Assembly (NCBI RefSeq): GCF_000482865.1
Contig: NZ_AXWW01000015.1
Span: 78,732-142,731, forward strand
Length of the DNA stretch: 64,000 bases
DNA from: Actinokineospora inagensis DSM 44258
GTDB lineage: Bacteria > Actinomycetota > Actinomycetes > Mycobacteriales > Pseudonocardiaceae
Direction of reading: 5' to 3'
Shown: piece by piece, positions 22,319 through 59,651 of the stretch
Position numbering within the stretch: the first letter of the stretch is position 1
Layout: each line of letters opens with the position of its first letter
The notes under the pieces: model-generated
Seen by the model: the letters and a program-made list of their open reading frames with translations, nothing else
Told to the model about the DNA's origin: nothing
Databases searched by the model: none
Position numbers and translations under genes: made by a program

Positions 22319-22801
22319 TCAGGCGGCGAGGGCGGACTCGCGGAGGGCGCGCAGCGCGTAGTGCAGGCGGCTTTTCACCGTGCCGACCGGGACCTGGAGG
22401 GTGATGGCGGCGGCAGCGGCGGTGCGGTCGGCGAAGTAGACCTCGACCACGGTCTTGCGGTGCGGCTCGGGGAGGGCTTCGAGGGCGGCGTCCACCACGA
22501 CCTTGTCGAGGACCTCGTCGGTGCGGGCGGGGGCGCTGGTGACGTCGACCTCGGGGAGTTCGACCTCGGCGGGGCGGGCGGCGCGGCCGCGGTGCTGGTC
22601 GACGGCGATGTTGTGGGCGACGCGCATGAGCCAGGAGCGAACGGAGCCGCGGTCCTCGGTGAGTTTCTCGCGGTGGCGCCAGGCGCGGATCCAGGTTTCC
22701 TGCACCACGTCCTCCGCGCGGTGCGGGTCACCGGTGACGCGGCGGGCGTAGGAGAGCAGGGCGGCGCGGTGGGTGGCGACGAGGGTGTCGAACTCGGCCA
22801 T
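22319..22801 (-). CDS. ECF-type RNA polymerase sigma factor
   Basis: A 160-aa protein from ATG 22801, with AAGGAGAAG just upstream. Region 2 is visible as DPHRAEDVVQETWIRAWRHREKL, followed by GSVRSWLMRVAHNIAVDQHR. Region 4 is ALPEPHRKTVVEVYFADRTAAAAAITLQVPVGTVKSRLHYALRALRE. Spacing and length are typical of ECF factors of the SigK/SigL type. No anti-sigma gene with a zinc-finger or membrane domain is adjacent. It precedes the mycosin gene on the same strand across 139 bp but is probably transcribed away from it, downstream. Confidence 0.9.
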   Translation of the reverse strand: MAEFDTLVATHRAALLSYARRVTGDPHRAEDVVQETWIRAWRHREKLTEDRGSVRSWLMRVAHNIAVDQHRGRAARPAEVELPEVDVTSAPARTDEVLDKVVVDAALEALPEPHRKTVVEVYFADRTAAAAAITLQVPVGTVKSRLHYALRALRESALAA

Positions 22802-22940
22802 CGGACTTCTCCTTGCGTCGTGCTTTCCGTTGTGACACAAGGTTCTCGCTTCTTACCCCCGGTTTCGCTGGGTCAATCCCGCCAACCGCGGGGGTGGTCC
22901 CGCCCTTCTCGTGGGGGCCACCCCCTGGGGATATCCCTAC

Positions 22941-24062
22941 CTACGCTGCTTTCCACCGTCGCCGTCGGGCACGCATGACGGCCAGGGCGGTGCCACCGCC
23001 CACGACAGCGGCACCGCCGAGCGCGGCCACGAACAGCAGGGCGGCCCGTGCGGGTCCACGGTCTTCCACCGGTGGCAACGCCACTACGACGTGTTCCTTG
23101 GACGGCGGCGCCTTCGTTTGTCCGCTCAAGAGCGTGGTCACGGCGGCGACGGGGTCCACGATCCCGTACCCGACAACAGGGTGCGGTACCTGCCCGGCTG
23201 GCTTGTCCGCGGTCGCGGTAAGACGTTTGATGACGTCGGCGGCTGACATGTCCGGATACTGCCCACGCACCAAAGCAGCGCTACCGGCCACGAACGCCAC
23301 CGCCAGCTCCGGCCCCGCCGCCAACCGATGCCCAGGCCCGGACGGTCCGATCCCAACCAACTGATCGGCCGGGGCCGCCAGCATCGGTTGCGCCCCCAAC
23401 GTCACCGTCTTGGCTGGCCCATCCGGTCCGACAGGGGCAACGGCCACGACACCATCCATCGATGCCGGGTACGCCCGCTGTTTGGGTTGTCTTACCGCCG
23501 CGGGCGCCACTACTACGACGTCCCGCGTCCTCGCGTAGTCCACGGCGGCCTGCAACTCAGGTGTGCTCACCGTGTTCAGGACGCCGATGGCGACAACGCG
23601 CGCCCCACTGTCGACCGCTACCCGGATTCCCGCCGCCAACGCGGCCGGGTCCACCTTGCCCGGGTCGCTGGTCACCCGCACCGGGATGATCTGGGCGTCC
23701 GGTGCCACTCCCGCGAACGCCGTCTTCGGTTGCGGCCGGGACGCGATCAGCCCGGCCAAGAACGTCCCGTGACCAGCGCAGTCGCTGTCCGCGGCACCTC
23801 CGGCGACGTCCGCTCCCGCGGTCACCGCGCCCGCCAGCGAGGGCGCCGCGGCGCTGACCCCGGTGTCGACCACCGCGACCGCGACCCCGCCGCGCGTCAT
23901 CGGCCACACCCGCTCCGCCCCGAGTCGCTTCTGCGCCCACGGCTCCGGCTGCGCCACCGTGTTCTCCGGCGGCGCGCACTGCCCTTGCTGCTGCGCGGAC
24001 GCCTGCTGCGGTAGCGCTACCGCCATGATCACCGCGATAGCCCCGACGAGTGCCGCCCTCAT
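22941..24062 (-). CDS. mycP: Mycosin-like subtilase of the type VII secretion locus, catalytically degenerate
   Basis: A 373-aa protein. ATG 24062 has GGAGGA 5 nt upstream and overlaps the EccC stop (ATGA). It has a signal peptide (to about residue 23, ASAQQQ), an S8 domain, and a C-terminal membrane helix with a basic tail (ALLFVAALGGAAVVGGGTALAVMRARRRRW), the mycosin layout. The catalytic Asp (AVVDTGV) and His (GHGTFLAGL) are present. The Ser motif, normally GTSxAAP, reads GPELAVAF, and the oxyanion Asn site, normally AAGN, reads APAAV. The protein is therefore unlikely to cut peptides. Mycosins are known to stabilise the ESX membrane complex independently of protease activity, and this one may have kept only that job. 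Confidence 0.88.
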   Translation of the reverse strand: MRAALVGAIAVIMAVALPQQASAQQQGQCAPPENTVAQPEPWAQKRLGAERVWPMTRGGVAVAVVDTGVSAAAPSLAGAVTAGADVAGGAADSDCAGHGTFLAGLIASRPQPKTAFAGVAPDAQIIPVRVTSDPGKVDPAALAAGIRVAVDSGARVVAIGVLNTVSTPELQAAVDYARTRDVVVVAPAAVRQPKQRAYPASMDGVVAVAPVGPDGPAKTVTLGAQPMLAAPADQLVGIGPSGPGHRLAAGPELAVAFVAGSAALVRGQYPDMSAADVIKRLTATADKPAGQVPHPVVGYGIVDPVAAVTTLLSGQTKAPPSKEHVVVALPPVEDRGPARAALLFVAALGGAAVVGGGTALAVMRARRRRWKAA

Positions 24063-27000
24063 GACGGCTCCTCCGTCCACCCGATCTGCAGCGAGGTCAT
24101 GTCGCGGCGGGTGACCAGCAGCGCCCGACCGGGCGGGAGCTGACGACCACGCTGGCCGTTGAGCAGCGGCATCTCGTTCGGCGGCACCGACAGCGCCAGG
24201 TCCGGCGTGTTCGACTCCTGCAACCGGCGGACCACCGCGTCCATCGACATCCGACCCGATCCGGCGGCCGCGCGGGCCAGGACCACGTGCAACCCGATGT
24301 CACCGGCCTGCGGCAGCAGTTCCACCAGCGGGTCCAGCGGCCCACCGGCGCCGTTGTTGAGCAGGTCGTAGTCGTCGACGACCACGAAGTACTCCGGGCC
24401 GGACCACCAGTCCCGCTCGCGCAGCCTGCTCGGGGCGATGTCGGCGCCGGGCACCCGGGTCTTCAGCTCGGCGGCCAGCGGCCGGATCAGCTCGGCGGCC
24501 GGACCGGCGGCGACGGCCACCCCGTGCCGGTACTCCTCCGGCACCGAGTCCAGCAGCGCCCGCCGCGAGTCCAGCAGCACGATCCTGGCCTCGTCCGGGG
24601 CGTACACGCGGGGGATGGCCTGGGTGATCAGGCGCAGCACGGCCGTCTTACCGCTACCGGTGTCACCGAGCACGGTCAGGTGCGGGCGGGCGGCGAAGTC
24701 GTGCCAGACCGGCTTGAGATCCAGTTCGCCCGCGCCCAACGCGACCCGCATCCGTCCGTCCGGCTCGGGCAGGTCCGCGGCGGGCAGCACGCCCGGCAGG
24801 GTCCGCACCTCGGGGGCCGACGGGCCGGACCAGCACTCGGCGACCGAGCGGGCCAGCTCCCTGGTCGCCTCGGCGAGGCCGTCGGCGGCGGCCTGGCCGT
24901 CGACCCGGGGCACGGCGGCGAGGAAGTGCAGCTTGTCCTGGGTCAGGCCGCGCCCAGGCAACCGCGGCACCTGGCCCGCCTTGCGCATGTCGATCACCGA
25001 GTCGATCGCGTCGCCCAGTCGCAGCTCCAGTCGGGTGCCGAGCTGGTCGCGCAGCGCCGAGTGCACATCGGACCAGCGGCCCGCGGTCAGCACCAGGTGC
25101 ACGCCGTAGGCGAGGCCGCGCACAGTGAGCTGGCGGATGGTCTGGTCGTGCTGCTCGAAGTCCGCGCGCAGCGACCCCCACCCGTCGACCACGAGGAACA
25201 CGTCGCCGTGCGGGTCGTCGGCGAACTCGCCCGCCGCGCGCCGCTCCCGGTAGGCGGCCATGCTCTCGATGCCGTGTTCGGCGAACACCTTCTCGCGTTG
25301 TGCCAAGACGGCCTTGACTTCGGCGATAGTGCGGCCGACTCGCTCCGGTTGCAGGCGGCCACACACACCGCCCACGTGCGGGAGCCCTTCGAGGACGGAC
25401 AAGGTACCGCCACCGAAGTCCAGGCAGTAGAACTGGATCTCGGTCGGTGTGTGTGTCAGCGCCAACGCCGTGATGACCGTGCGCAGCAAGGTGCTCTTAC
25501 CGGACTGGGTACCGCCCGCGATACCGATGTGCCCACCGGAGCCGGACAGGTCCACCATGTGCAGATCGCGGACCTGCTCGAACGGCTTGTCCACCACCCC
25601 CACCGGGATCTTCAGCCCGCCCCGACCGGGCCAGTCTGCGGCGGTAAGACCCAACCGGGGGTGCGGCACCAGCGGCGGGAGGAGCTGGTCCAGCGGGGGC
25701 GGGTTGTCCAGCGGCGGCAACCACACCTGGTGCGCGGGCGGCCCCTGCCCCAGCAGCTTGTCCACCGCCACGTCCAACACCGTGTCCACGTGCTCGTCGG
25801 CGACCGGTACGGCGGTGACCGCGGCGACCTCGGTGGCCGAGGGCAGCCTGCCCGCCCCGAACGCCACGACCTGCCTACGAACTTCCTCCTGCCGCTGCTC
25901 CTTCGTGCGCCGCTGGTAGCGGCCTGACACGTACGCGGCCTTAAAGCGGACGAGAGTGGCCACGTCACTGCGCAGGTAACCGTTGCCCGGCGCGCTCGGC
26001 AGTTGGTAGGCGTCCGGCACGCCGATCACCGAGCGGCTCTCCATCGCGGAGAACGTGCGCAGACCGATCCGGTACGACAGGTGGGATTCGAGCTTGTGCA
26101 TGCGGCCGTCGTCGATGCGCTGCGACGCCAGCAGCAGGTGCACGCCCAGCGACCGGCCCAGGCGGCCGATCATGACGAACAGCTCGGCGAAGTCCGGGTT
26201 GGCCGCCAACAGCTCGCTGAACTCGTCGACGATGAGGAACAGCGTGGGCAACGGGTCCAGCGCCGCGCCCGCCTGGCGGGCCCGCTCGTAGTCCAGCAGC
26301 GAGCTGTAGTTGCCCGCCGCGCGCAACAGCTCCTGGCGGCGCACCATCTCGCCGTGCAGCGAGTCCTGCATCCGGGTCACCAGCGGCGCCTCGTCGGCGA
26401 GGTTCGTGATCACCGCCGAGGTGTGCGGCAGCCGGTCAAGGCCGAGGAAGGTCGCGCCGCCCTTGAAGTCGACCAGCACGAAGTTGAGGATCTCCGACGA
26501 GTGCGTCATCGCCATGCCCAGCACGAGCGTGCGCAGCAGCTCGGACTTGCCGGAGCCGGTGGCGCCGATCAGCAGGCCGTGCGGGCCCATGCCGCCCTGC
26601 GCGGACTCCTTGATGTCCAGCTCGACGGTCGAACCGTCCTCGGCGATGCCCAGCGGGATGCGGAACCGCTCGGCGCCCATCCCGGTGCGCCACAGCGACT
26701 TCGGGTCGAGCATGTCCAAGTCGCTTACGCCCAGCAGCCGCGGTAGGTCGAAGTCGGCGACCATCGGTTCGGCCACATCACCGGACGAGTTGAGGCGATA
26801 AGGAGAGATCACCCGGGCAAGAGCGCCTGCGCGCGCGACGCTAAGAGTGTCCGGACGGCCCAACAGGGTCCGTACCTGCTGGCCGGTGCGGTCGGTGCGC
26901 ACGGTGTGCAAATCCTCTGGCGTCACCTCCAGCCGTAGCCGCGAACGGCCCGCGGACCCGTCGAGCGCACCGGAGATGTCCAGCACGACCGTGTTCCGGT

Positions 27001-28006
27001 AGCCCGCCGCGGCCAACCGCGACTCCGCGGGCACCTCGACCCCGTCGAGCACCACCACGACGTACGGCTCCTCGCGGCTGGGGGTCGCCGCCGACTCGAA
27101 CCGGGCGCGCTCGTCGAGCTCGGCCGCGAGCAGCTCGGTCAGCGCGTCGACTCCGTCGGCGAGCAACCGCACCTGACCGGCCCCGTCCTGCTCCACCGGG
27201 TGCTGCGCGTGCGGGAGCCACTTCACCCAATCCCACTCGGGCAGCCGGTCCGGGCTCGCGCACACGGCGACCCGCAGGTCCTCGGGGGAGTGGAAGGTCA
27301 CCAACTGGGCCAGCAACGCCCGCACGGCGCCGCGGCCGGTGTCCTCGTCGCCGGAGAGCCGCACCTGGGCGAACCCACGCAGGAACAGCGCGGTCGGCTG
27401 GTCGGCGAGGGTGGTGTAGGCGTTGATGAACCGGCGCAGCGCCCGCGCGGACAGCGGCTCCAGGTCGGCCACCGGCTTGGTCTGCATCGGCGTCATGGCC
27501 ATCGCCAGCCGCTGTTGCCCGACCCCGATCCGCACCTCGGCGAAGTCCGCGTGCGCGGCCCGCCGCTCCCACAACCGGCCGGTCATCGCGACCGACCAGA
27601 GCGCTGCGGGCTCCGGGTGCCGCCAGCCGAGCGCGGTCCGCTGCTGGTCGGCCACCGCGCGGACCTGCTTGCGGGTGCCGGACAGGTAGCGCAGGTAGTC
27701 CCGGCGCTCGCCGCGCAGCCGCTGCCTGCGGTCGGCGCCGCCCCGGCCGAGCTGGTTGAACACCATCATGACGCCCATCAGGCCCATCATCCCGGCCATC
27801 ATCAGCGCCATCTGCGGGTTCTGCGGCCCCATGAAGAACAACATGGCCGCGCCGCCGCCGACGGTCATCGGCAGGTACATGAGCATGCCGCCCATGCCGC
27901 CGCCGATGGTCTCGGGCAACACCGGCGGCTCCTGCAGGGACAGCTCACCGCCGGGCATCTCCGGCGGCTTCTCCCTGGCCTGCCTGCGAAACAGCGTGGT
28001 GCTCAT
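24059..28006 (-). CDS. eccC: EccC-type ATPase of type VII secretion
   Basis: A 1315-aa protein from ATG 28006 with GGGAG upstream. Two N-terminal membrane helices (MLMYLPMTVGGGAAMLFFMG and MALMMAGMMGLMGVMMVF) are followed by three FtsK/SpoIIIE ATPase domains. Their Walker A motifs are all intact: GATGSGKSE (about residue 480), GGTQSGKST (about 832) and GDTGSGKTA (about 1115). Walker B-type strands are FVLVDFKGG and FYCLDFGGG. It is a single-chain EccCa/EccCb fusion, the motor that recognises WXG100 substrates and drives export. It is the first gene of a minus-strand unit with the mycosin and divergent from eccD. Confidence 0.95.
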   Translation of the reverse strand: MSTTLFRRQAREKPPEMPGGELSLQEPPVLPETIGGGMGGMLMYLPMTVGGGAAMLFFMGPQNPQMALMMAGMMGLMGVMMVFNQLGRGGADRRQRLRGERRDYLRYLSGTRKQVRAVADQQRTALGWRHPEPAALWSVAMTGRLWERRAAHADFAEVRIGVGQQRLAMAMTPMQTKPVADLEPLSARALRRFINAYTTLADQPTALFLRGFAQVRLSGDEDTGRGAVRALLAQLVTFHSPEDLRVAVCASPDRLPEWDWVKWLPHAQHPVEQDGAGQVRLLADGVDALTELLAAELDERARFESAATPSREEPYVVVVLDGVEVPAESRLAAAGYRNTVVLDISGALDGSAGRSRLRLEVTPEDLHTVRTDRTGQQVRTLLGRPDTLSVARAGALARVISPYRLNSSGDVAEPMVADFDLPRLLGVSDLDMLDPKSLWRTGMGAERFRIPLGIAEDGSTVELDIKESAQGGMGPHGLLIGATGSGKSELLRTLVLGMAMTHSSEILNFVLVDFKGGATFLGLDRLPHTSAVITNLADEAPLVTRMQDSLHGEMVRRQELLRAAGNYSSLLDYERARQAGAALDPLPTLFLIVDEFSELLAANPDFAELFVMIGRLGRSLGVHLLLASQRIDDGRMHKLESHLSYRIGLRTFSAMESRSVIGVPDAYQLPSAPGNGYLRSDVATLVRFKAAYVSGRYQRRTKEQRQEEVRRQVVAFGAGRLPSATEVAAVTAVPVADEHVDTVLDVAVDKLLGQGPPAHQVWLPPLDNPPPLDQLLPPLVPHPRLGLTAADWPGRGGLKIPVGVVDKPFEQVRDLHMVDLSGSGGHIGIAGGTQSGKSTLLRTVITALALTHTPTEIQFYCLDFGGGTLSVLEGLPHVGGVCGRLQPERVGRTIAEVKAVLAQREKVFAEHGIESMAAYRERRAAGEFADDPHGDVFLVVDGWGSLRADFEQHDQTIRQLTVRGLAYGVHLVLTAGRWSDVHSALRDQLGTRLELRLGDAIDSVIDMRKAGQVPRLPGRGLTQDKLHFLAAVPRVDGQAAADGLAEATRELARSVAECWSGPSAPEVRTLPGVLPAADLPEPDGRMRVALGAGELDLKPVWHDFAARPHLTVLGDTGSGKTAVLRLITQAIPRVYAPDEARIVLLDSRRALLDSVPEEYRHGVAVAAGPAAELIRPLAAELKTRVPGADIAPSRLRERDWWSGPEYFVVVDDYDLLNNGAGGPLDPLVELLPQAGDIGLHVVLARAAAGSGRMSMDAVVRRLQESNTPDLALSVPPNEMPLLNGQRGRQLPPGRALLVTRRDMTSLQIGWTEEPS

Positions 28007-28188
28007 CCGTCCACTCCCTGACATCTCACGGCGGCTGCTGCGGCCCGTCGACACCTGCAGGCCCTACACGGCTGTCCGCGCCGGAGGAGTTCACCGGAGT
28101 TTTCCGGCCGCGTCCGGTCCACCCGATGTTCACCGAACCCGCCCGAACCCGGGTGAACCGTCCCCGGGCCGCCACCCGTGTGCTGGGC
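28007..28188. promoter_or_regulatory. Divergent promoter region of the type VII secretion locus
   Basis: The 182-bp gap separates the eccC and eccD starts, so both halves of the locus are probably expressed from here. The words GTTCACCGGAGTT (28087-28099) and GTTCACCGAAC (28128-28138) share GTTCACCG and could be regulator half-sites. No clear -10/-35 pair is visible. Confidence 0.35.
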
Positions 28189-29571
28189 ATGGCCACCACC
28201 GCAGCGGCGGGTTCCGGCGAGATGTGCAGGCTGACCATCTGCGGGCCTGCTTCCCGTGTCGAACTCGCCGTCCCAGCCCACGTTCCCCTCGCCGACCTGA
28301 TGCCGACCGTGCTCGGCCACCTGGACCCCGCGCTGGCCACCACCGGCCTCGCGCACGGGGGTTGGGTGCTGCAGCGCCTCGGTGAACCGCCGCTGGACGA
28401 GGACCAGGGCACCGCCGCCCTCGGCCTCTACGACGGCGACCTGCTGCACCTGCGCCCCCGCGACGCCCTGTTGCCCCTGGTCGACTTCGACGACCTCGTC
28501 GACGGCATCCACACCGGACTGTCCACACGGGACGATGTGTGGCGCCCGGCGTACACCCGGCGCGTATTCGTCGCCCTGATGGGTCTTGCCGTTGTCGCAG
28601 GCGTTGTCACCGCCGGAGCCAACCCCATCTACGCCGGTAGCCTCGCCGCGGTGCTGCTCGCAGCAGCAGCGACCGCCAGCCGGGCACTGGGCGACCGCGT
28701 CTCCGCGTTGGTCTTGGCCGGTGTCGGGGTTGTCTCGGCTGCCTTGGCCGGTTTGGGGGTTCCGACCGGCGAGCACCCGTTGGGCGGTCTTATGACCGGG
28801 CCGGGGGTGATGGCGGGCGCCGCCGCCGCGACCGTTGCTGTCGTCATCGCGCGAGTGGCCGTGGGCGGGCGGGACGCGCTGTTCATCGCGGTCGGGTTGG
28901 CGACGCTTCTCGCCACCATCGGCGGAGGCGTGGCCACCGCGACAGGCTGGGGTTCCGCTGCGGCGTCCTCGGTAGCGCTAGTCGTCGCTCTTATCCTCAT
29001 CAGGGTCGCGCCACTGACAGCGGCCAAGTTGGCTGGGCTGCAGGTCGACCAGGTGCCGACGAGCGCGGCCGAGTTCCAGCAAGACCTCGATCCGCAACCC
29101 AGTGCCACAGTGCTCGACAGCGCCAACCGCGCGGACGCCTATCTCACAGCGTTCTTCGTCGCCCTGGGCACGGTTTCCGCAGTCTCTATGGTCATCCTGG
29201 CGATGAACGACAAGTGGGACGCCAAGACTCTTACCGGTGTCGCGGCCGCGCTGCTGTTGTTGCACGCCAGGGAGCTCACCGCCATCGCACATCGACTGGC
29301 CTCGCTTGTACCGGCGCTGATGGGTCTTTTCTCCCTCTTGCTGGTCGGCATAGCCGATGTGTCACAACAGTTCCACCCGTTGGTACTCGGCGGACTCGTA
29401 GTCGTCGCGGGACTCACGTTGGTAGGCGCGCACCTGACCCCCGGTCGCAAGCTCGTGCCGATGTGGGGCCGGTGGGGTGACCTCTTGCACTGGGCCACCG
29501 CCCTCGCCGTGATCCCGTTGGCCCTGTCCGTCATGGGTGTCTACACCGCGCTCATGGCCGCTTGGCACTGA
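28189..29571 (+). CDS. eccD: EccD-type membrane channel protein of type VII secretion
   Basis: A 460-aa protein if ATG 28189 is the start; GTG 28153 is also in frame, and no ribosome-binding site settles it. The N-terminus is a ubiquitin-like cytoplasmic domain (CRLTICGPASRVELAVPAHVPLADLMPTVLGHL ... DGDLLHLRP), as in EccD. About eleven membrane helices follow from residue 125 to the end. EccD forms the central membrane pore of the ESX complex as a dimer within each protomer. Neighbouring eccB and the WXG100 genes confirm the assignment. Confidence 0.92.
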   Translation: MATTAAAGSGEMCRLTICGPASRVELAVPAHVPLADLMPTVLGHLDPALATTGLAHGGWVLQRLGEPPLDEDQGTAALGLYDGDLLHLRPRDALLPLVDFDDLVDGIHTGLSTRDDVWRPAYTRRVFVALMGLAVVAGVVTAGANPIYAGSLAAVLLAAAATASRALGDRVSALVLAGVGVVSAALAGLGVPTGEHPLGGLMTGPGVMAGAAAATVAVVIARVAVGGRDALFIAVGLATLLATIGGGVATATGWGSAAASSVALVVALILIRVAPLTAAKLAGLQVDQVPTSAAEFQQDLDPQPSATVLDSANRADAYLTAFFVALGTVSAVSMVILAMNDKWDAKTLTGVAAALLLLHARELTAIAHRLASLVPALMGLFSLLLVGIADVSQQFHPLVLGGLVVVAGLTLVGAHLTPGRKLVPMWGRWGDLLHWATALAVIPLALSVMGVYTALMAAWH

Positions 29572-29675
29572 GAAAACCCTTAGACCGCAAGATTCCGTGA
29601 ACCATCCGGCGCCCGGTAGCCGTGTCCAAGGCAGACGGTGCGCACGACAACCCGAGGAACGAGAGGAGGCAGGTC

Positions 29676-31019
29676 ATGTACAGCAGGCGCGACCAGGTCC
29701 AGGCCCACTCGTTCCTCGTCGGCAGGTTGAACAGCGCGGTCCTGCGGGTCGACCCCGACGCGCTGGAGCGGCCGATGCGGCGGACGGTGGCCGGGCTGGC
29801 AGGCGGCACCGCCGTCGCCGGGCTGGTGCTGGCCGGGACGCTGGTGGTCAACCTGATCGCCCCGGGCAGCGGCACCGCCTGGCGGGAGCCGGGCGCGCTG
29901 ATCGTCGACGAGGGCACCGGCGGCCGGTACCTGATGGTCGACGGCAAGCTCCGCCCGGTCCTCAACTACGCCTCCGCCCGCCTGCTGCTCGGCGCCAACC
30001 CCAAGGTCGCCACCGTCACCGCCGCCGACATCACCGGTGTGCCGCAGGGCGGCCCGATCGGCATCATGGGCGCCCCGGACTCGCTGCCCAACCCGGGCGG
30101 CGCGCAACGCACCTGGACCGTCTGCGCGATGACCACCCCGGACGGACCGGGCGTCGCGCTCGCCATTGGCGTGGGCGGCACGCCGCAGCCACCGGTGGAC
30201 GGGGCGCTGCTGGTCCGCGCCCCCAACGGGGGCCTGCACCTGGCCTGGCGCGACCGGCGGCTGCGGGTCACCGCGACATGGGTGCCCGCCGCGCTCGGAC
30301 TCGACCCGACCGCCGCGGTCCCGGTCACCGAGTCCTGGCTCAACGCCCTCCCCGAGGGCCCCGACCTCGGCTCGCCGAAGATCAGCCGAGGTGGTTCCGG
30401 CCCGACCATCGGGGGAGAGCCCACCACCGTCGGTCAACTCCTGCAGGTCCCCGAAGCCGTTGTCGGTGAACGGTTCTACCTGGTTCAGGCCGGGGGACTG
30501 ATGCCCGTCAGTGCTACCGTCGCCGCTTTGCTCGTCGCGGATCCGGCCTCGCCGCAGCCATCACGCAAGATAGCGGCGGCGGACTTGGCGACCGCGACTA
30601 TGCTGCCCGCCCCCGACTGGCAGACGGGCCTACCGCCAGAGCCACCACACCAGATCGACCTCGCCGACGGCGCTAACAGCGCCCCTTGCGTGCGATGGAC
30701 CGGCGACACCGCCACGCTCACCGTCGGCCCCCGCCTCACCGGCGACCCGGACCCGGCCGTGCAAGGCACCGACCACGACAACCGCACCGCCGACCATGTC
30801 ACCGTCGCCCCCGGCGCGGGGCTCCTCGTGCGGACCCGACCGGCACCCGGTGTCCCCGGCGCGGGCATGTACCTCGTCACCGACGCGGGTACCAAGTTCC
30901 CCGTCGCCAGCGGCGACGCCGCGACCGCGTTGGGACAACCCGTCGAGGGCGCCGCCGCGGTTCCCGCCGACCTCATCGCACTACTGCCCACCGGTCCCGT
31001 ACTGGACCGGCTCAAGTAG
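29676..31019 (+). CDS. eccB: EccB-type membrane protein of type VII secretion
   Basis: A 447-aa protein. ATG 29676 follows GAGAGGAGG by 6 nt. The N-terminus (MYSRRDQVQAHSFLVGRLNSAVLRVDPDALERPMRR) is the classical EccB opening, followed by one membrane helix (GTAVAGLVLAGTLVVNLIAPG, about residues 45-65). A large external domain follows, with repeats such as YLMVDGKLRPVLNYASARLLLG near the start and GAGMYLVTDAGTKFPVASGDAATALG near the end. EccB caps the pore on the outer side. The gene lies 104 bp after eccD and 36 bp before the first WXG100 gene. Confidence 0.93.
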   Translation: MYSRRDQVQAHSFLVGRLNSAVLRVDPDALERPMRRTVAGLAGGTAVAGLVLAGTLVVNLIAPGSGTAWREPGALIVDEGTGGRYLMVDGKLRPVLNYASARLLLGANPKVATVTAADITGVPQGGPIGIMGAPDSLPNPGGAQRTWTVCAMTTPDGPGVALAIGVGGTPQPPVDGALLVRAPNGGLHLAWRDRRLRVTATWVPAALGLDPTAAVPVTESWLNALPEGPDLGSPKISRGGSGPTIGGEPTTVGQLLQVPEAVVGERFYLVQAGGLMPVSATVAALLVADPASPQPSRKIAAADLATATMLPAPDWQTGLPPEPPHQIDLADGANSAPCVRWTGDTATLTVGPRLTGDPDPAVQGTDHDNRTADHVTVAPGAGLLVRTRPAPGVPGAGMYLVTDAGTKFPVASGDAATALGQPVEGAAAVPADLIALLPTGPVLDRLK

Positions 31020-32290: not shown

Positions 32291-34570
32291 ATGGCCGACC
32301 CCACGATCCCCGCCACCGGGGACTTCACCACCGCCAGCTACGAGCAGATCCTTTTCGCGATCACCGGCCTGGGCAGCGACCTCATGGGCATGCTCGACAG
32401 CGGTGGCGGGATCGGGGAGTCGCCCAACACGTGGTTCACCTTCACCCCGCCCGGCTCGGCGGCGAACTCCATCTCTTACCACGCCTGGGACAAGTACTAC
32501 TTCGGCGCGGACTTCAACATGGCCGCGTTCAACTCGTGGTACGCGGCGTGGCACGCGATCGACGACGCGGTGACCCAGGCGTGGTACGGCAAGTCCGGCC
32601 TGATGGACGTGCAGTTGCTGCGCGACTCCAAGACCGTCACCGACAACTACCTGACGTTCCTGACCGAGAGCCTTAACACCACGAAGTCCTGGGGGGACAG
32701 CCTCGACAGCGACGACAGCGCGTTCAAGGGAAAGGCCGCCTTCGCGATCCAGGTGAACCTGCGCAGGCTCGCGTTCACGTTCAACGACCTGCACGACCAG
32801 ATCACCCTGGACCGCACCCCGTCCACCCCCACCGGCATCGACGACGCGGCCACCGCGCTGTCCACCTTCGGCAAGAACATGTGGCAGATCTGGTCCGACA
32901 GCCGCGACTTCCTGCTCAACGCGCCGATGAACACCGCGAACACCTTCGTCGCCAACGTCATCGCGCACATCAAGCACCAGGGCCTGGATGTCAGCACCAA
33001 GGGCATGGAGAGCTGGGGCGAGCCGTCGTACCTGCTCGACCAGTGGAGCGCCAAGGACCGCGGCAAGGCCGAGCAGTACATCCGCGACTCGATGGCGCTC
33101 TACGCGTCCAACCGGGTCACCCCGCCCGCCATGCCCACCGGGTTCCCCGTCGTGGACGGCGACCTGACCCGGGCCGAGACCTGGAACGCGGCGAACAACT
33201 CGATCAGCGAGGTCGCCCGGGTCGAGCTGCGCAAGATGGCCGTCAAGGCCCGTACCGAGCTCGCCACCCTGGAGGCCGCCTACCGCAAGGCCGGCCGCAG
33301 CCTCGGCGACCTGAAGACCAACCAGCCGCCGACGATCGGCAGCCCGCCGCCGGACCCCAACACCAACCCCAACGGTCCCGGCAGCGGCGACCCCAACATC
33401 CCGCCCCCGCCGAACGGGGACACCAACGTCCCACCGCCGCCCAACGGCGACACGAACGTGCCCCCGCCGCCGAACGGCGGGATCGACGGCCCCGGCGGTC
33501 CCAACCCGAACGACTTCCCCAACGGCTCCGGGTCCGGCAGCGGCCTGCCCGACGGGTTCAGCAACCTGTCCAACGACCCCAGCAAACTCGGCGATCCGCC
33601 CAACGGCGGCACCAACTTCCCCGGTCTCAACGACGCGTTGAACCCCAACGGCGGTACCAACGGCGGGGGCCTGCCCGGCGGCGGCGACGGCGGAACGGGT
33701 CTGCCCTTCCTGCCGAACCTGCCCAACGGCGGCAAGAACAGCAACGGTGGTGCCAACGGCGGCACGAACCTGCCCAACCTCCCGAACGTCGAGAACCCCG
33801 GCGACGGTCACATCGGCGACGACGGGTGGGAACCGAACCAGCCGAACGGTTCCACGCACCTGCCCGGCGGCACGAACCTGCCCGGGTCGAACGGCGGCGT
33901 GCCCGGGTTCCCCGGCGGTGCCCCGGGCGGCCCCGCCAACGGCGGGATCGGTCTTGGCCCCGGTTCCCTCCCCGGTACCGGCCCGGTCACGGGGCTCAAT
34001 GGCATCGGCGGCCTGCCCGGCGCGGACGGCTCCATCGGCGGCGCGGGCGGCGGCCTCGACTCGTGGGGCGCGGCAGGCGGCGGTGCCGGGGTCGGCGCGG
34101 ACGGTTCGTTCGGCGCGGGTGGCGGCTTCGGTGCGAACGGCGGTGCGGGCACGGGTGCCGGTTCGCCGTTCGGGACCGGGTCGGAGACCGGTTGGTCGGA
34201 CTGGTCCGGCCACGGGTCGGACGGCGCCAACGCCGCCGGTGGGCCCGGTGGCGCCGGTGCCGAGCACGACCAGCGCGGCGGCATGCCGTTCTTCCCGCCG
34301 ATGATGGGTGGGATGGGCGGCATGGGTGGCCGCGGCAGCGAGGAGAAGGAACGCGAGCGCACCACCTGGCTCTCGGAGGACGAGAAGATCTGGGGCACCG
34401 ACACGGAGATCGGTTTCGGCGTCATCGGCCGACCCGACTCCGGCGCCCCGGAGATCGACGAGCCGCTGGTCACCACGCACGTCCACCTCCGGTCGACCAC
34501 GTCGAGCACCCGCCAGGTCGAGCGCGAGACCCGCCAAGAGGCCGAGGGCACCGCGACCGCCAACGGCTGA
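32291..34570 (+). CDS. Large PPE/EspB-like type VII secretion substrate
   Basis: A 759-aa protein. Residues 1-345 are helical (SYEQILFAITGLGSDLMGMLD ... SISEVARVELRKMAVKARTELATLEAAYRKAG). Then comes a low-complexity region of about 330 residues rich in Asn, Gly and Pro, with units such as NGDTNVPPPP (33400-33480) and poly-Gly stretches. The C-terminal 90 residues contain TTWLSEDEKIWGTD followed by GFGVIGRPD, a closing motif I know from other actinobacterial ESX substrates. It probably forms an extracellular helical scaffold with a flexible linker. Its gene follows the small partner gene by 87 bp. Confidence 0.8.
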   Translation: MADPTIPATGDFTTASYEQILFAITGLGSDLMGMLDSGGGIGESPNTWFTFTPPGSAANSISYHAWDKYYFGADFNMAAFNSWYAAWHAIDDAVTQAWYGKSGLMDVQLLRDSKTVTDNYLTFLTESLNTTKSWGDSLDSDDSAFKGKAAFAIQVNLRRLAFTFNDLHDQITLDRTPSTPTGIDDAATALSTFGKNMWQIWSDSRDFLLNAPMNTANTFVANVIAHIKHQGLDVSTKGMESWGEPSYLLDQWSAKDRGKAEQYIRDSMALYASNRVTPPAMPTGFPVVDGDLTRAETWNAANNSISEVARVELRKMAVKARTELATLEAAYRKAGRSLGDLKTNQPPTIGSPPPDPNTNPNGPGSGDPNIPPPPNGDTNVPPPPNGDTNVPPPPNGGIDGPGGPNPNDFPNGSGSGSGLPDGFSNLSNDPSKLGDPPNGGTNFPGLNDALNPNGGTNGGGLPGGGDGGTGLPFLPNLPNGGKNSNGGANGGTNLPNLPNVENPGDGHIGDDGWEPNQPNGSTHLPGGTNLPGSNGGVPGFPGGAPGGPANGGIGLGPGSLPGTGPVTGLNGIGGLPGADGSIGGAGGGLDSWGAAGGGAGVGADGSFGAGGGFGANGGAGTGAGSPFGTGSETGWSDWSGHGSDGANAAGGPGGAGAEHDQRGGMPFFPPMMGGMGGMGGRGSEEKERERTTWLSEDEKIWGTDTEIGFGVIGRPDSGAPEIDEPLVTTHVHLRSTTSSTRQVERETRQEAEGTATANG

Positions 34571-35661: not shown

Positions 35662-38600
35662 ATGGCGATGACGGTGCCGGACGAGGTCCGCGGGCTGTTC
35701 CTGGTGCTGACCGGCGATGAGTGGCCGGATGCCAACGAGGACAAGCTGCGTGCGCTGGCGGACGCGTGGGACCGGGCGGCGGACCGGCTCAGCGGCGAGT
35801 TGGCGCCGGAGTTGCGCACGGCGGTCAACGCGATCCGCTCGACCTTCCGGGGTGCCGCGGAACTGGCGTTCGCCAACCGGATGGCGCCGTTCGTCGAGGG
35901 CGGGGACAACTACATCGCGGTGGCGGACCAGCAGTTCAAGGTACTCGCGAAGTTCCTGCGCGACCTGGCGCTGGAGGTCGAGTACACCAAGCTGGTCTCC
36001 ATCCTCTCGATCATCGCCCTGATCGCGGAGATCGCCTGGGCCATCGCGAACGCCTTCTTCACCGCGGGCGCCAGCATGGCCTGGCTGGCGGCGCGGATGG
36101 CGATCGTGCGGTTCCTGCTCAAGTCGCTGCTGGGCAGGCTGCTGCTCAAGGTCATCCAGGCCGAGGTCATCGGCATCGCCTTCCAGTTGATCATCGACAT
36201 CGCGGCGCAGCTCATCCAGTTCGCCATGGGCACCCGGCACGAGTGGAACACCCAGTACACCGCCAGTGCCGCCGCCGTCGGTGCCCTCGGCGGCGCGCTC
36301 ACCCTGCCACTGGCGGGCATCGGCCACGTCATCTCGCACCTGACCACGCACGGCCTGGACTCCTGGCTCGGCAAGGTCGCCAAGAACAAGTTCGACTGGC
36401 ACCACGCCATCCCGGAGAACGTCGTCGAGATCGGCGTTGAGGCCTTCCACGAAACCCTCACCGAGGCCCTCTACAAGTACGCCACCGAGGGCGAGTTCGT
36501 GATGAACCCGTTCTCCGCCACCTCCGGCGCCATCTCCGGCGTGGGCGGCGTCGTCGGCGCCGCCATCGGCAACTCCGTCGCCACCTCCCTCGGCGTCGTC
36601 AAACCCCCCGCCCACACCCCGCAGTCCAAACCCACCACCCAGATCGACGGCACCCGCGGCCCCGCCCCCACCCCGCCCCCCACGACAACCACGACCACGA
36701 CCACAACCACTCCGATCCCCACCCCACCCGTGGTCGACCAGGTCACCGGCCCCAACGGCATCCCCACCCCGACCTCGTCGACCACCATCCCCACCCACAC
36801 CCCGACCACCACAACCACGTCCGCCACCACAACCACGTCCGCCACCACAACCACGTCGACCGGCACCACGTCCACCGGCACGTCTTCCACCAGCACGACG
36901 ACAAGCACCACGCCGTCCACCCACTCGACAACCACCACCTCGACGAGCGCCACCACGCCGTCCACCACCACGCCGTCCACCTCGACGCCGTCCACCACCA
37001 CGCCGTCCACCACCACGCCGTCCACCACCACGCCGTCCACCTCGACGACGAGCACCAGCCACTCCACCGTGCTTCCGTCGAGCACGAACACCCACACCCC
37101 CGGCCAATCCGGCCCGGTCACCACCACAACCCAGTCGTCCACCACGTCAACGTCATCGACGAGCCAGTCCACCCCTGGCCAGTCGAGCACCACCGGCGCC
37201 CAGTCGACCACCAGCAGGCCCACCCCCTCGACGACAAGCACCGGAACGAACACCACCAGCACGACGTCCACGACCACGAGCTCCACGCACACCACTCCGA
37301 CTGGGACGAGCTCCAACCCAGCCACCAGCGCCACCACAACCTCCAGTACCGCCAACTCCACCACGTCTTCAACTACCGCGTCTTCAAGCACCACCTCTTC
37401 AACCAGCACCAGTTCGACCACCACGAACTCGAACAGCACGAACTCGAACACCGGCTCGCAGACCGCCACCACCAAGTCCCCGGCCACCCAGGCTCAGACC
37501 AGCACGACTCAGACCAGCACGACTCAATCCGGCACGACTCAGTCCAGTTCAACGCAGTCCAGCTCAACGCAATCGAGCACGACCCAGTCCGGCTCGACCC
37601 AGTCGAACACCACCCAGTCGAACACCACCCAGTCGAACACCACCCAGTCGAACGCAGGCCAGGCCAAGACCACCGAGACGACCACCGGTCAGGGCAAGCA
37701 GAACCCGAGCACCACCGTCGCCAGCACGACCGCCCCCAAGTCGCCGACCTCCACACCGAATCCCGTCACCGCCACCGCGACCGCCGGGCAATCGCAGACC
37801 GCGAAGACCCCCGCCGCGCCCACCGAGTCCGCCCGACCCACCACGACCACCAGACCGACCACGACCACCGGCTCCACCAAGGTCACCAGGCCACAAGAGT
37901 CCACAAAGGTCTCGAAGCCCGCGACGACCTCCACCACCGAGGCCCCCAACCAGGTCGCGAAACCGGTCAAGCCCCAGCAGGCCACCGCCACGGCCACCGT
38001 CGGTGTCACCCCGGCGAAACGACCCCGCCGCGAAGGGCCCGCTGTCCCGCCGAAGGCGAAGAAGACCGGCGAGCGGTTCACCGACTTCCGCCGGTGGGTC
38101 GGCGGTATCAACAACGCCAAGGGAACCGTCAACTGCGTCAACGCGGCCGTGGCGTTCCACGAGACCTGGCGTGGCAACCCGAGCAGCGCCGGTCCGGATC
38201 GAGCGGGCACCGCGCACGCCAGTGAGCGCACCGGGTACGCGCCGCAGTTCCTCGGGGAGGGCAGGCGTGCGGTCAACGAGGTCGTCAAGCGCGTTCGCGC
38301 GGGTGGGCACGGGTCGGACGCGATCGTGTTCACCACGCCGCCGGGCGCCAAGGACGGGCACGCCTGGAACGTGGTGAACCACAACGGCGAGGTGTTCCAC
38401 GTGGACGCCCAGGACGGGACGTGGTCGACCGACATCCCGCCGTCGGGCAAGGTGTGGGCGATCGTGCAGGACCCGCAGGGCTCCTTCATCGACGGCACCA
38501 CCGTCGACAACTACGGCAGCACGGGTCCGCAGGCGATCGGTGACTCATTCGGTGTCCGACCGCCCAACAACATCGTCGCTGTCGCGCAGCAGGGTGTCCG

Positions 38601-41600
38601 CGACGCGCAGGGGCATGTGGACACCGCGGCCGATCAGGTGCGGCGGGCCGAGTTGTCCCAGCGGTCGGCGCGGGCGCAGGAGTTCGCGGCGGAGGAGTCG
38701 AACCGGCAGGCGCAGGCCGCCGTCGTCCCGGCGAACACGGCCGCGGCGCCGGTGATGCAGCAGTTGAACCACGTGCGCAACCAGATCAACACCGCGATCG
38801 GCACGTTGACCAACCAGATCAACGCCGAGGGCTTGCTGCAGAACCAGGTCGACACCGCCGACGACGCCGAGGCCGACGCCCGCGACGACGTGCGAGACGC
38901 ACAGCAGGTCCTCGACAACGCCGCCCCCGACGACGTGGCCAACGCCCGGCGCGCACGGGACGGAAGGCAGGCCGCGCTCGACACCCTCGTCACCAACCAC
39001 GGGCCGCTCCGCCTCCAACTGCAGACGGCCACGCAGACCCGCCAGGCCACCCAGGTCACCATCGCGAACCTGCGCGTCCAGGAGGGCGCCGCGCACGCCG
39101 CCGCGCGTGGACCGCACGCGTCGGCCACCCGGGCGCTGACCAACGCCAACACCGCGAACACCCAACTGCAGAACGCCACCCAGGCGGCCACCGACACCGC
39201 CACCCAGGTGCAGACCGCGCGGACCCAGCGGCAGAACGCGGCGACCGAGCACGCCACCGTCACCCGGCTCGCCCAGGAGATCCAGCACCACTCCGGGTTG
39301 GAGACCGCCGCGCACAACACCGCCGTGCTGTCGAACGCGGCCGCGACGAACGAGGAGAACCGGGCCACCGGGCTCGAACAGCAGGTCCAGCAGCTCGACC
39401 GGCAAATCGGCACGCTGCAGGACCAGGTCAACACCAACACCCTCGAGGTGGCCCGGCAGCGGCGCGAGGTCGCCGAGGCCCGCGCCGAGCTCGCGCGCCA
39501 ACACGCCGCCAGCCAGGCCGCAGGCCAGGGCACCAGCCAGGCAGGTGCCAACCAAGCGGCCGCCACCCCGGCCCCGCAGACCACCCCGGCGATCACCCAG
39601 CAGGAAGCCGCGATCACCCGGCTGGAACAGCAGATCACCCAGGACCAGGCCCAGATCGTCACCCTCACCGGCCAGCGCAACACGACCAACGGCCAGGCGG
39701 GCACGGCCCGCACCCAGGCCACCCGGTTGCGCACCCAGGCCGACCTCGACCAGCAGGCCGCCGACGCCGCCGCCGACGAGGTCAACAACCGGCACACCGA
39801 GCTCACCACCGCGCTCGGCCGCGCCCAGCAGGCCGCCCAGAACGCCACCGCCGCCGCCCAGACCGCCGCGACCCGGGCCAGGGACACCGCCACCGCGGCC
39901 ACCGCGGTCAAGAACGCGGCCAAGCAGGGCAACGTCGAGCGCGGGCTCACCATGCTCGGCGACGGCCCGTTCGCCGACCGGATCGTCGTCGAGGAACTGG
40001 GCGACACCACCGGCGTGGTGAACTCCGTGGCCGGTCTGTTCGGCGACCACCCCGGCGTCGCGAACCAGGCCGGTCGGACCGCGGCGACCGCCGTGGAGCG
40101 GCACCTGACCGAGATCATCAACCACGGCCACGAGATCACCGTGGACCTGCCCAACGGCAACCAGGCGCGGGTGCTGCTCACCGGCAGGCCCAAGCGCCCC
40201 GAGGACACCCGGGGCTCGTCGACCGTCAACGCGGTGCCCAACGCGCACCCGGACATCGTCAAGACCACCCGCGACGACCAGCACAACCCGGTCACCGTCA
40301 CCGGGTCCAGCAGCCTGCCCATCCGCATCCCGCTGATCTCGTTGGCCCCGATCGTCGACACAGTGCCGTTCCTGCGGCCGAACGCGTCGGTCGGGTTCAC
40401 CGCCCGCCGCAACCAGGGCGAGACGTCCAACAACTCCAGCAGGCCGGGTGTGCGGACCGGCGACCGGCCGTGGGTGAACGCCGACATCGAGATCGTCGCC
40501 ACCCGGATCGGCAACCCGAACCCGGCGACCAGCACGGTCCACGCGGGCATGCGGGTCCCGGCCGTCGTGCCCGCGGTGGCCAACGCGCAGCCGCTGCCCG
40601 TCAACGGCCGCGACCAGTTGACCTCGGACGCGACCCACGTGCCGGTTCCGTTCACCGACGCGGTCAACACCGCGCTGGGTGGACAGCACCGGGGCGACGT
40701 CACCGACCTGCTCAAGTCCCAGCAGGTGCGGCGGATGGCCAACAACGGCCAGGTCAACACGACCATCGGCGGCACCGGCGTCAACGTCACGGCCACCGGG
40801 GCACCGCAGGTCACCTTGGTCGGGCCGTCCAACCGGGTCGACGAGCAGCGCACCGCGCACGTCCCGTCGTCGGTGGTCACCAAGGGCAGTGACGTCACCG
40901 CGGGACTGGGCATGGCGGCGGGCATGGACACCGGCACCCTGCAGTGGTTCGTCGGCCTGTTCAGCGACTTCTCCAGTTCCCGCAACGGCGGCTACAACCG
41001 GGGCAACGAGTCCGCCGTCGAGCGCAACGCCACCCAGGCCGAGCTGGTCTACCGGATCACCCGGCCGCTGCAGGTCACCGTGGCGGGTCAGCCGCCGACC
41101 AACGGCACCATCACCGAGCTGGTCACCGTCCCGGTGGACGTGGCGCGGAACCTGAACCTGGACATCCCGCAGCAACTGGACCCGACCGCGGTACAGCCCC
41201 GGCCGCCGGGCAACCAGCCGTACATGATCGGCACCGACGACATCACCGCCGTGCCCGGCAAGGCGCAGGTGCTGACCTTCATCAACACCGGTCTGGACGC
41301 GACCGGGCAGGCCGCGGTGAACGAGAAGTTCGACACCGACCCCAAGACCGTTACCGCGATCTTCAACGCCATGCACGGCGGCGAGGAGGTCACCTGGGTC
41401 GAGGGGGGGCAACTGCACAAGCTGGACATCTACGTCAAGATCCGCCCGCCCGCCAACACCTTCGCCTCCGGCCAGGCCAAGGCGACCGTGCAGGACCACG
41501 TCACCTCGCAGCGCAGGCGCACCGACCAGATCGGCCGTACCGCGCGGCTCGGCGTCGGCGGCGAGGTCCGCCCCACCTTCGGCGACCGGCCACCGGCGAG

Positions 41601-44600
41601 CGAGCACCCCAAGGGCGGCGCGACGACCTCAACCGCTCTGCCCCGCGTCGTCGTGTCCGGCACTTACGAACGCACTCGGGCCTCCGCGGTCGGCACCAAC
41701 GGCCGCGACGGCCGCATCACCGCGTACGGCGGCGAGTACCGCGGCTTCGACGGCGACATGGAGGTCGTCGTCGTGCACCGGCAGACCCCGGTCCCCAACT
41801 GGTTCCGCCGGGTGTTCCTGGGCGGCCGGATGACCTTCGGCACGGCCTCGCCCGACCGGCTCAACGAGCCGACCAGCGCGGCGATCGACACCGCGCGGAC
41901 CATGAACACCAACCCGGTCAACACCCCCCAGTTGCGCAAGCAGACCGTGCCCGCCGCCGTCACCGTCTCCGCGCCGGTGGACAAGCTCGCCTGGTCCGAC
42001 CGGCCACCCGCGCCATCCACGATGAACGCTGGCCTCTACGTCGGCACCGCGCCCGCCATGGCCCACGGCACCGTCGTGGTGGACCCGGAGCTGTTCGGCG
42101 AGTTCGCGGGTGTCGAGCACGTGCGGGTCACCCCGAACAGCACCGAGGCCGTCAACATCGCGCTGGCCAAGAGCGTGCGGCAGATCCCCCCGCCCGGCGC
42201 GCCCGGTCGGCCGCCCGCGCCGGAACGCACATCCCCCGGGATGCTGAGCGGGACCTGGCCGTCCTGGGGCACCAGGACCGTCACCGAGTCCAACCGCGGT
42301 GGGGTGAACCAACGCCAGTTCAGCTACAAGCTCTCCACACTGACCAAACCCGGCACCACCGCGGGCGACGCGATCCGCGGGTTCGTCTCCCAGGCGGGCA
42401 GGCGCGGTCTGGCGGTGCTCGGCCTCAACGGCGAGCAGGGCGGCCCGCACAAGCTGTACGAGCCGGGGCGGCTCACCGACATGAACGGGTCGATCAGCGC
42501 CGCCGCCACCTACTCGTCCCCGCGCGTTGTCGACGTCCGCAAGGACGGCCAGTTGCAGCGGCGGCAGGACGGCGACCTGGTCGTGAACAACAACAAGCAG
42601 CGCCAGTTCGGCGTGGAGGCCGAACTGGCCGTCGACGTGCTGCCCCGGCGGCTGACCAAGTTCGGCAACCGGGTCCGGCTCGCCTTCGGCGGCAACCGGC
42701 GCGGCGGCCGGGCCAACATCGACGAGCTCACCCCGGGCGGCCGCCAGCTCTACAACTACAAGGGTCCGACGGTGTGGCTGACCATGGACGTCCGCTACAA
42801 CTACACGGGCAACCTGAACATCCGCAACAGCGTCAAGACCTCGACCGCCGACCCGGTGTCGGTCTTCGTCGACGAGCCGGACGGCATCCTCGTCCAGTTG
42901 CCCGCGCGGACCGCCGCGGAGATGTTCACCGCCAACGGTTTGCCGGTCCCGCCGGAGATCCAGGCCGTGCTGCCGCCCGCCCCGGCGCCCGCGCCGCCCG
43001 CGACCACGCAGACCCTGCTCAGCGACCCGGCCAACCCCGCGTACAACAACTACGTCTCGCACGGCACCACCACCGTGTTCAACTCCCGCCTGCACGGGAT
43101 CAACCCGCTGCAGGACGCGCGGACCCGGCTCACCACGATCGGTGTCACCGGCAAGTGGCAGGCCGACGTGATCGAGCGGATCACCGAACTGCTGTCCAGC
43201 CCGCGCGGTCACCTCTCGCTCAAGGACGTGCTCAGCGACACCGGGGTGATCTCCATCCCGAACAACGACCCGTTCTACGCCGACGTGGTCGACGTCCGGA
43301 TCGTCGCGACACCGACCCAGGCCGCCCCGGCGCACGCCGCGCGGCCCGCGCCGCAGAACACCCCGCTGACCCCGAACTCGCAGACCACCTACTCCTACAT
43401 CAACACCGTCGACTCCGTGCAGAAGACCAAGTCGCACGCCTACGCGGCCGGTATCCAGAACGACCTCATCATCCGCGAGGCCGCCCCGCGCGTCACCCAG
43501 CCCGACGGCAGTGTCGTCGTCCAACCGGGCTCGACGGCGGGCAACCTGGGTGCCCTGCTCGGTGTCGGCAAGCAGGTGTCGGAGTCGGAGACCCTGCCGG
43601 GCAGCACGCAGCTCAAACCCATGCGGCTGTTGACCTTCGACCAGCTCGACCGGTCCACCCACGACGTGACCTACTCGCTGGAGATCTCCCGCATCCGCAC
43701 CCCGATGCCCGCCCCGGACGCGTTGACCCTCACCGCGATCCGCCACTTCAACCGCGACGAGATCGCCACCGCCCCGGTCCACGCCTACGGTTCGGTCGAC
43801 CTGGTCGCCCCCAAGCCGCGGTCGTCACCGCCGATGAACGCCCCGGTCGCGCCCACCTTCGACGTGCTCACCACCAACCCGCTGAACCTGCCCGCCGCCG
43901 ACCCGAACCGGGTCAACCAGCGGGTGCTCGACCCGGACGGCATGTGGCACATCGAGTCCCTCGGGTCGTCGACGGCGAGGGCCATCCGGGACGCCGCCTA
44001 CGCCCAGGCCTCCGCGGCACCGGTCGCGGTGGGCAACAACGTGCCGCAGGGCAACTTCGTCAACGCCCGCAACAATCCCTCGACCTACACCAGCAAGGGC
44101 ACCACCTCCGAGTACGCCGTGCACACCCTCACCACCGGCACCGGTCTGCACAACGGCGGCTGGTCGATGTTCACCGGCGACTCGTACTCCACCAAGGGCA
44201 TCGTCGGCGCCAAGCACACCTTCCACGACGACCTGCTCGACGTCTCCGTGCAGGGCCGGTTCGTGCCGGGCTCGTTCACCCTGGTGCCGCTGAACAACCC
44301 GGGCAAGGTCGACCACGGCCGCGAGACCGAGGACATCACGCTCACCGGTTCCTCCCGCACCGTCACCTGGTCCCGGGGCGCCACCGCCGCCGGTCTGGGC
44401 GGCGGCACGGCGCGGCACCCGAGCGACACGCTCACACCGGGGCCGGTGAACCTGCAGACCACGCCGACCATGGGCGCGGAGAGCGCCACCGGCGTGCCGG
44501 AGGCCCAGACCAACGCGGTCTTCGACCTGACCGTGGTCGCCCAGGGCGGGCGGTCCTACCTGTTCGACGCCAACGCCGAGTTCTACGTGCAGACCACGCC

Positions 44601-59317: not shown

Positions 59318-59342
59318 GCCAGTGCTACCAGGGAGGACACAG

Positions 59343-59651
59343 ATGGATCAGGACAGGTGGCGCAAGAGCTCCTTCAGCGGCGGCAACAACGGCAACTGTG
59401 TCGAGGTCACCATGTGGCGTAAGAGCAGCTTCAGCAGCGGCAACGGCGGCCAATGCGTCGAGGTCAACCTGTGGCGCAAGAGCACCTTCAGCGGCGGCAA
59501 CAACGGCGAGTGCATCGAGCTGGCCCCCACCCTCGGCGGCGTCCGCGACAGCAAGAACCCATCCGGCCCCATCATCACCGCCCGCATCGACGCCCTCATC
59601 ACCGCCGTCAAGCACGACCAGGTCCGTCACGCCCGCAGCATCGTCAGGTAG
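59343..59651 (+). CDS. DUF397 protein with a threefold internal repeat
   Basis: A 102-aa protein; GGGAGGA ends 5 nt before ATG 59343. DUF397 proteins normally have one WRKSSFS-type N-terminal block followed by GVRDSK and a closing helix. Here the block occurs three times with an exact 19-residue period (Trp6, Trp25, Trp44): WRKSSFSGGNNGNCVEV, WRKSSFSSGNGGQCVEV, WRKSTFSGGNNGECIEL. One ordinary GVRDSKNPSGP ending follows. It probably binds or antagonises the adjacent DUF5753 regulator. The 3' end overlaps a decayed methyltransferase gene on the other strand. Confidence 0.92.
   Translation: MDQDRWRKSSFSGGNNGNCVEVTMWRKSSFSSGNGGQCVEVNLWRKSTFSGGNNGECIELAPTLGGVRDSKNPSGPIITARIDALITAVKHDQVRHARSIVR

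Follow-up and report, generated by a model that had tools for sequence, protein, structure and literature searches.

The mycosin homologue encoded in an ESX locus of Actinokineospora inagensis DSM 44258 appears to be a natural pseudoprotease, as a preliminary description of this locus had proposed: although catalytic residues are lost, relatives retain it and selection on it is purifying, it has no alternative serine, and its fold is predicted to be intact. We studied the gene within a stretch of 64,000 nucleotides (positions 78,732 to 142,731 of contig NZ_AXWW01000015.1), hereafter the window. Its sequence and its analogy with mycobacterial systems suggest that the protein probably acts as a cap that stabilises EccB in an ESX-4-like system lacking EccE. 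Degeneracy extends further than first noted, to a clade of degenerate mycosins together with additional, separate losses.

Catalytic positions of the window mycosin

The window protein is recognisable as a mycosin by its predicted subtilase fold, which resembles MycP (among the best fold matches listed), and by its place in an ESX locus with eccB, eccC and eccD. The NCBIfam model T7SS_mycosin (TIGR03921) matches it with 258.3 bits over profile positions 2–353 of 353. This does not reach the curated cut-off of 278.75, and we therefore treat the protein as a homologue below the equivalog line, noting that some intact mycosins also score below the cut-off (e.g., L172, with 261.4 bits and all four key residues). 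The disulfide cysteines are retained. We placed the start at the ATG at 24062, with the stop at 22941 and an alternative GTG start at 24080.

Alignment confirmed the earlier reading of the active site, in which the Asp (VVDTGV) and His (GHGTFLAGL) motifs were intact and the Ser and Asn motifs had become GPELAVAF and APAAV. Asp66 and His98 are retained, whereas Val190 occupies the oxyanion Asn position and Glu252 the catalytic Ser position (Table 1), with GPEL aligning to GTSM of thermitase and GTSF of MycP1 in pairwise alignments. Additionally, the groove Ser at position 160 is Gly, and conservation is gone near the catalytic residues and the substrate groove. The protein has neither the complete Asp-His-Ser triad nor the oxyanion Asn of an active S8 protease. 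It would not be expected to cut peptide bonds, having lost its nucleophile (Glu252 in place of Ser), its oxyanion Asn (now Val190) and groove Ser160.

We considered whether another residue could serve in place of the missing serine. In an alignment of nine rows (A1), GPEL and GHGTF are invariant, the invariant cysteines are C29 and C95, and the sole invariant Ser is S70, four residues past the Asp; a displaced catalytic Ser was rejected, as this alignment holds no conserved candidate. Asp66, His98 and Glu252 are also invariant in A1, which would be compatible with hydrolysis through an unusual site, such as Asp-His-Glu or a metal. We regard this as the least probable of the explanations considered here, given that the nucleophile, the oxyanion Asn and groove Ser160 are gone and that His98 is replaced by Arg in 14, Thr in 4 and Ser in 1 of the 48 rows of the main degenerate group described below.

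Conservation in relatives and repeated loss

Within the genus, the altered motif recurs across species. The closest named relatives of the window protein, at 67–75% identity, are from Actinokineospora species, and GPEL is common to all eight relatives compared at 55–74% identity. Matches with E ≤ 1e-30 were found in 12 of 16 genus genomes, and nine of the 16 carry a degenerate copy. The Ser motif reads GPEL(A/G)V in L022–L028, in a second A. inagensis copy (L033) and in L034, GAELAV in L031, and GTS in L029, L030, L032, L035 and L036. The same Ser and Asn loss is found in related genomes, in the genus and beyond it, and its recurrence in homologues from separate genomes excludes a sequencing error at the Ser codon.

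A second, intact mycosin, which had been raised as a point to check, is present elsewhere in the A. inagensis genome. The genome has three ESX loci: that of the window (C11), one on C18 with a degenerate mycosin, and one on C44 with an intact mycosin (G000:C44). The EccC of the C18 locus is 85% identical to that of the window, and the EccC of the C44 locus 46% identical. The sole EccE match of the genome lies at C44, outside the window. An intact mycosin was likewise present in all 21 Pseudonocardiaceae genomes with a degenerate copy that were compared (A. inagensis and 20 others, including G084). The intact C44 mycosin could in principle act in trans on substrates of the window system.

Such a second system raises the possibility that the window ESX is redundant and its mycosin on the way out. 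Consistent with decay, the C44 locus supplies both an intact mycosin and an EccE gene, C18 holds a second degenerate copy, and in the relative L034 (G002) the frame does not include the N-terminal portion of the domain. However, the reading frames are otherwise intact, gene order is kept, and the motif is identical across species. The mycosin dN/dS (ratio of nonsynonymous to synonymous substitution rates; Nei-Gojobori, own script, seven pairs) was 0.14–0.28, compared with 0.06–0.16 for EccC, 0.13–0.30 for EccD and 0.14–0.35 for EccB. We consider decay very improbable.

To describe degeneracy more broadly, we built a survey profile from 24 mycosins, both intact and degenerate. In the model alignment, rows after the first begin at in-frame points upstream of homology, which are not proven starts. 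Matches below 140 bits (below 200 bits in an earlier round) were dropped prior to counting, and the remaining 270 matches in the gathered loci, all at or above 140 bits, gave 192 distinct mycosins after removal of duplicates. The survey left out 16 of the 60 places of one homologue listing and many from two others. We write the residues at the Asp, His, Asn and Ser places as a four-letter code, with DHNS as the intact form. All four residues were present in 139 of the 192 mycosins and 53 were degenerate, a proportion that does not represent a frequency because the degenerate rows were mostly found by a query biased toward them. A class sample (L134–L225), picked by mycosin-model score and hence biased to intact forms, contained 6 degenerate rows out of 92, three of which shared a locus.

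Loss of the Asn was universal among the 53 degenerate mycosins, and the Ser was lost in 46. The Ser place held Glu (23), Gly (8), Ala (8), Ser (7), Asp (3), Pro (2) or Gln (2). One residue was lost in 4 rows, two in 23, three in 19 and four in 7, counting a gap at the Asp place of L034 as a loss and including L223, where the Asp and His columns are uncertain. All four places are changed in L258 (7363–9066, GIDA), L259 (8086–9519, GIEA), L261 (7682–9412, STDA), L257 (8422–9765, GQGE) and L223 (8525–11920, GDDG), which stand apart in the trees; in L223 the degenerate mycosin adjoins an intact one on the same strand. We also note that L052, L059 and L205 each have three degenerate mycosin types per ESX locus (DHAD or DHPD, DTTE, and DRDA) and no intact mycosin in the stretch, so a heteromeric cap may be possible there.

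Phylogenies point to several losses. In a tree of all 192 rows, with columns within two of each key residue left out, 48 of the 53 degenerate mycosins fell in one clade without intact members (Shimodaira–Hasegawa-like approximate likelihood ratio test, SH-aLRT, 98), while L258/L259/L261, L257 and L223 fell apart from it, giving four changes. A thinned tree of 100 rows (35 degenerate, 65 intact), which also left out the groove columns and used ultrafast bootstraps, gave six changes, five of them forced by starred branches. Here the window protein belonged to a clade of 20 rows (99/96) with degenerate forms only, and nine Streptomyces and Micromonospora rows formed a second degenerate clade (99/89); the other losses were in L048, L258/L259/L261, L257 and L223. 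Joining the two largest groups (29 rows) was not rejected by the approximately unbiased test (p-AU 0.289). A single origin of all losses was too simple, appearing as one change only in a first 100-row tree (SH-aLRT 93), and four to six losses account for the trees.

Most degenerate mycosins are accompanied by an EccC lineage of their own. Of the 33 EccCs belonging to the main group, 32 fell together in a clade (SH-aLRT 98) that includes no locus with an intact mycosin. The EccC tree had 80 rows, 37 of them from loci with degenerate mycosins only. The exception, L048 (Catellatospora), lies among intact rows, as it also does in the thinned mycosin tree, which makes co-inheritance near but not strict, and the EccCs of L257, L258, L259 and L261 are elsewhere in the tree. 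Same-strand coupling to eccC was not a general mark of degeneracy. Among rows with an EccC in their context, it occurred with a gap of <400 in 23 of 45 degenerate rows (11 opposite, 11 same-strand but farther) and in 2 of 51 intact rows (43 opposite, 6 same-strand but farther).

These trees also bear on the idea that the former active site has been reused, either through a putative ion pair between position 98 (His or Arg) and Glu252, or as a pocket that binds a ligand or a substrate tail and gates the pore. In the 20-row clade that includes the window protein in the tree of 192 rows, positions 98 and 252 are occupied by His and Glu in 12 rows, by Arg and Glu in 6, and by Thr and Gln or Ser and Gln in 2, and the two motifs invariant in A1 contain these positions. 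Reuse has a precedent in Clostridioides difficile CspC, whose triad positions hold Asp, Thr and Gly and which has a proposed role as germinant sensor, according to PMC6636752. However, the two rows with Gln are sisters and represent one event, Thr occurs with Glu in three rows of another branch (L052, L059, L205), and the Ser place is Gly, Ala or Pro in other branches. We view reuse as unlikely, although less so than decay or hydrolysis.

Proposed structural role

Studies of mycobacterial systems support a role for mycosins beyond proteolysis. In M. marinum, secretion is reported to be restored by MycP1 and MycP5 variants with a dead catalytic site, and to be increased by MycP1 S354A (PMC5082899). 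In ESX-5, the EccB5 chamber is reported to be capped by a MycP5 trimer, which has its active sites facing the lumen and enables EccB5 assembly (PMC8131196). Our structural interpretation agrees with both. By analogy, the window pseudo-mycosin, coupled to EccC, would serve as a periplasmic cap tying EccB dimers into a stable ring round the pore, and substrates would pass through the window ESX machine unclipped. Losses in other actinobacterial families suggest that there, too, the protein is a building block rather than an enzyme.

Three observations weigh against a purely structural cap. MycP5 Trp523 is buried at the EccB5 interface (PMC8131196), and the Trp after DPVAALT in the MycP1 alignment is Thr in the window protein and in the intact A. 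inagensis mycosin, so the contact with EccB may not be the same. All nine A1 rows retain Asp66 and His98, which is more than a pure scaffold requires, although in A. fastidiosa (L049) the Asp place is Ser. Finally, 4 of the 53 degenerate rows have lost only the Asn and keep the whole triad (DHPS, DHAS), and some of these relatives may retain weak activity.

Comparison with known systems places the window protein among mycosins while setting it apart from characterized examples. It resembles mycobacterial MycP1, MycP3 and MycP5 in fold, in its putative leader and C-terminal anchor (both judged by eye, the anchor also from a predicted helix) and in its position by eccC, eccD and eccB, but lacks their Ser, Asn and groove Ser and scores below the TIGR03921 cut-off. 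The laboratory mutants MycP1 S354A and MycP5 S461A of M. marinum also lack the nucleophile and are reported to support secretion (PMC5082899). However, each carries one engineered change in a protein that is active or presumed to be so, whereas the window case is natural, involves several residues and extends across species. C. difficile CspA and CspC are likewise subtilases without catalytic residues in critical non-enzymatic roles (PMC6636752, in part), but they act in spore germination, have a prodomain and jelly roll, and have no role in a secretion system. ESX-4, as given in the accessible portion of PMC4791881, comprises eccB, eccC, eccD, mycP and a small-gene pair, and we tentatively call the window system ESX-4-like by gene content, although its mycosin is degenerate and its eccC-mycosin pair is divergent from eccD-eccB.

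We found no report of natural pseudo-mycosins among the papers listed by searches of the open-access literature (11 to 20 per search, of up to 931 matching), with subscription papers mostly outside this scope. Naturally inactive mycosins are not reported in the accessible parts of PMC3482391, PMC10924467, PMC5156307, PMC4791881 and PMC4182475; the last lists several mycP genes for Micromonospora lupini, without active-site analysis in those parts.

Neighbouring genes and implications

The surrounding genes are arranged as an eccC-mycosin pair divergent from eccD-eccB (Table 1), an order conserved in related loci. The coupling of the pair noted earlier holds, with the eccC stop TGA lying inside the ATGA of the mycosin start. 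No match to PF11203 (EccE) was found within the window. The two WXG100-sized proteins had no Pfam or NCBIfam match, and their putative Esx identity comes from size and place. A Padloc scan of three neighbours gave no match.

Table 1. Features of the mycosin gene, its protein and the ESX locus, in window positions
Feature	Position	Strand	Remarks
Degenerate mycosin homologue, 373 amino acids	22941..24062	minus	Peptidase_S8 75.9 bits (cut-off 21.8)
N-terminal hydrophobic leader, ~residues 1–23	23994..24062	minus	putative signal peptide, by eye
Asp66, retained	23865..23867	minus	motif VAVVDTGV; profile alignment
His98, retained	23769..23771	minus	motif CAGHGTFLAGL; profile alignment
Val190 at oxyanion Asn position	23493..23495	minus	motif VVVAPAAV; profile alignment
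Glu252 (codon GAG) at catalytic Ser position	23307..23309	minus	motif AAGPELAVAF; profile and pairwise alignments
C-terminal helix, residues 336–367, then basic residues	22962..23057	minus	predicted helix and by eye; putative membrane anchor
ECF (extracytoplasmic function) sigma factor gene, downstream of mycosin	22319..22840	minus	
eccC, fused EccCa-EccCb ATPase	24059..28054	minus	P-loop pattern at residues 497 and 1130
eccD	28126..29571	plus	
eccB	29622..31019	plus	
WXG100-sized protein 1, 100 amino acids	31056..31358	plus	same place in related loci
WXG100-sized protein 2, 96 amino acids	31455..31745	plus	same place in related loci

Several neighbouring genes may be connected to the system. 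In seven of eight close loci (L037–L042 and L049, not L043), a gene similar to the sigma factor gene beside the mycosin is present within 4 kb downstream, on the same strand, and the ECF sigma factor may regulate the ESX system. On the plus strand, a giant open reading frame (ORF) of 3594 amino acids (35662–46446) begins with a WXG100-like domain (PF25547) and matches PF15644, a papain-fold glutamine-deamidase toxin family, twice (at ~residues 824–919 and near the C-terminus). It resembles a polymorphic toxin and may be exported by the window ESX system. Between the small genes and this ORF, a 759-amino-acid ORF (32291–34570, plus) is a candidate secreted substrate, with no Pfam match and a sub-cut-off match to NCBIfam AAWKG (27.2 versus 70 bits). 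Farther along, an ORF at 59277–59651 (plus) has at least two WRKSSFS-type segments, which we take to be reminiscent of DUF397 repeats, and the ORF upstream of it (58466–59317) looks like a helix-turn-helix regulator.

The findings speak to the puzzle of why ESX secretion requires a protease whose activity is dispensable. Natural machines in which the catalytic residues have been absent for a long time would offer an evolutionary answer, namely that the non-catalytic role is the conserved one. A broader scenario, which we offer only tentatively, is that type VII secretion can dispense with proteolysis and that actinobacteria have dropped it on four or more occasions. One such loss might have given rise to a long-lived ESX lineage linked to EccC (Pseudonocardiaceae, Thermomonosporaceae, Micromonosporaceae and possibly Streptomycetaceae). 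In that lineage the mycosin would do no more than cap the pore, and its emptied, lumen-facing site would have been rebuilt as a new structural or substrate-sensing element. With two degenerate ESX systems and one intact, A. inagensis allows a paired comparison within one bacterium, and the degenerate systems are candidates for structural study without proteolysis. More generally, annotation as 'mycosin' or 'S8 peptidase' does not imply a working protease.
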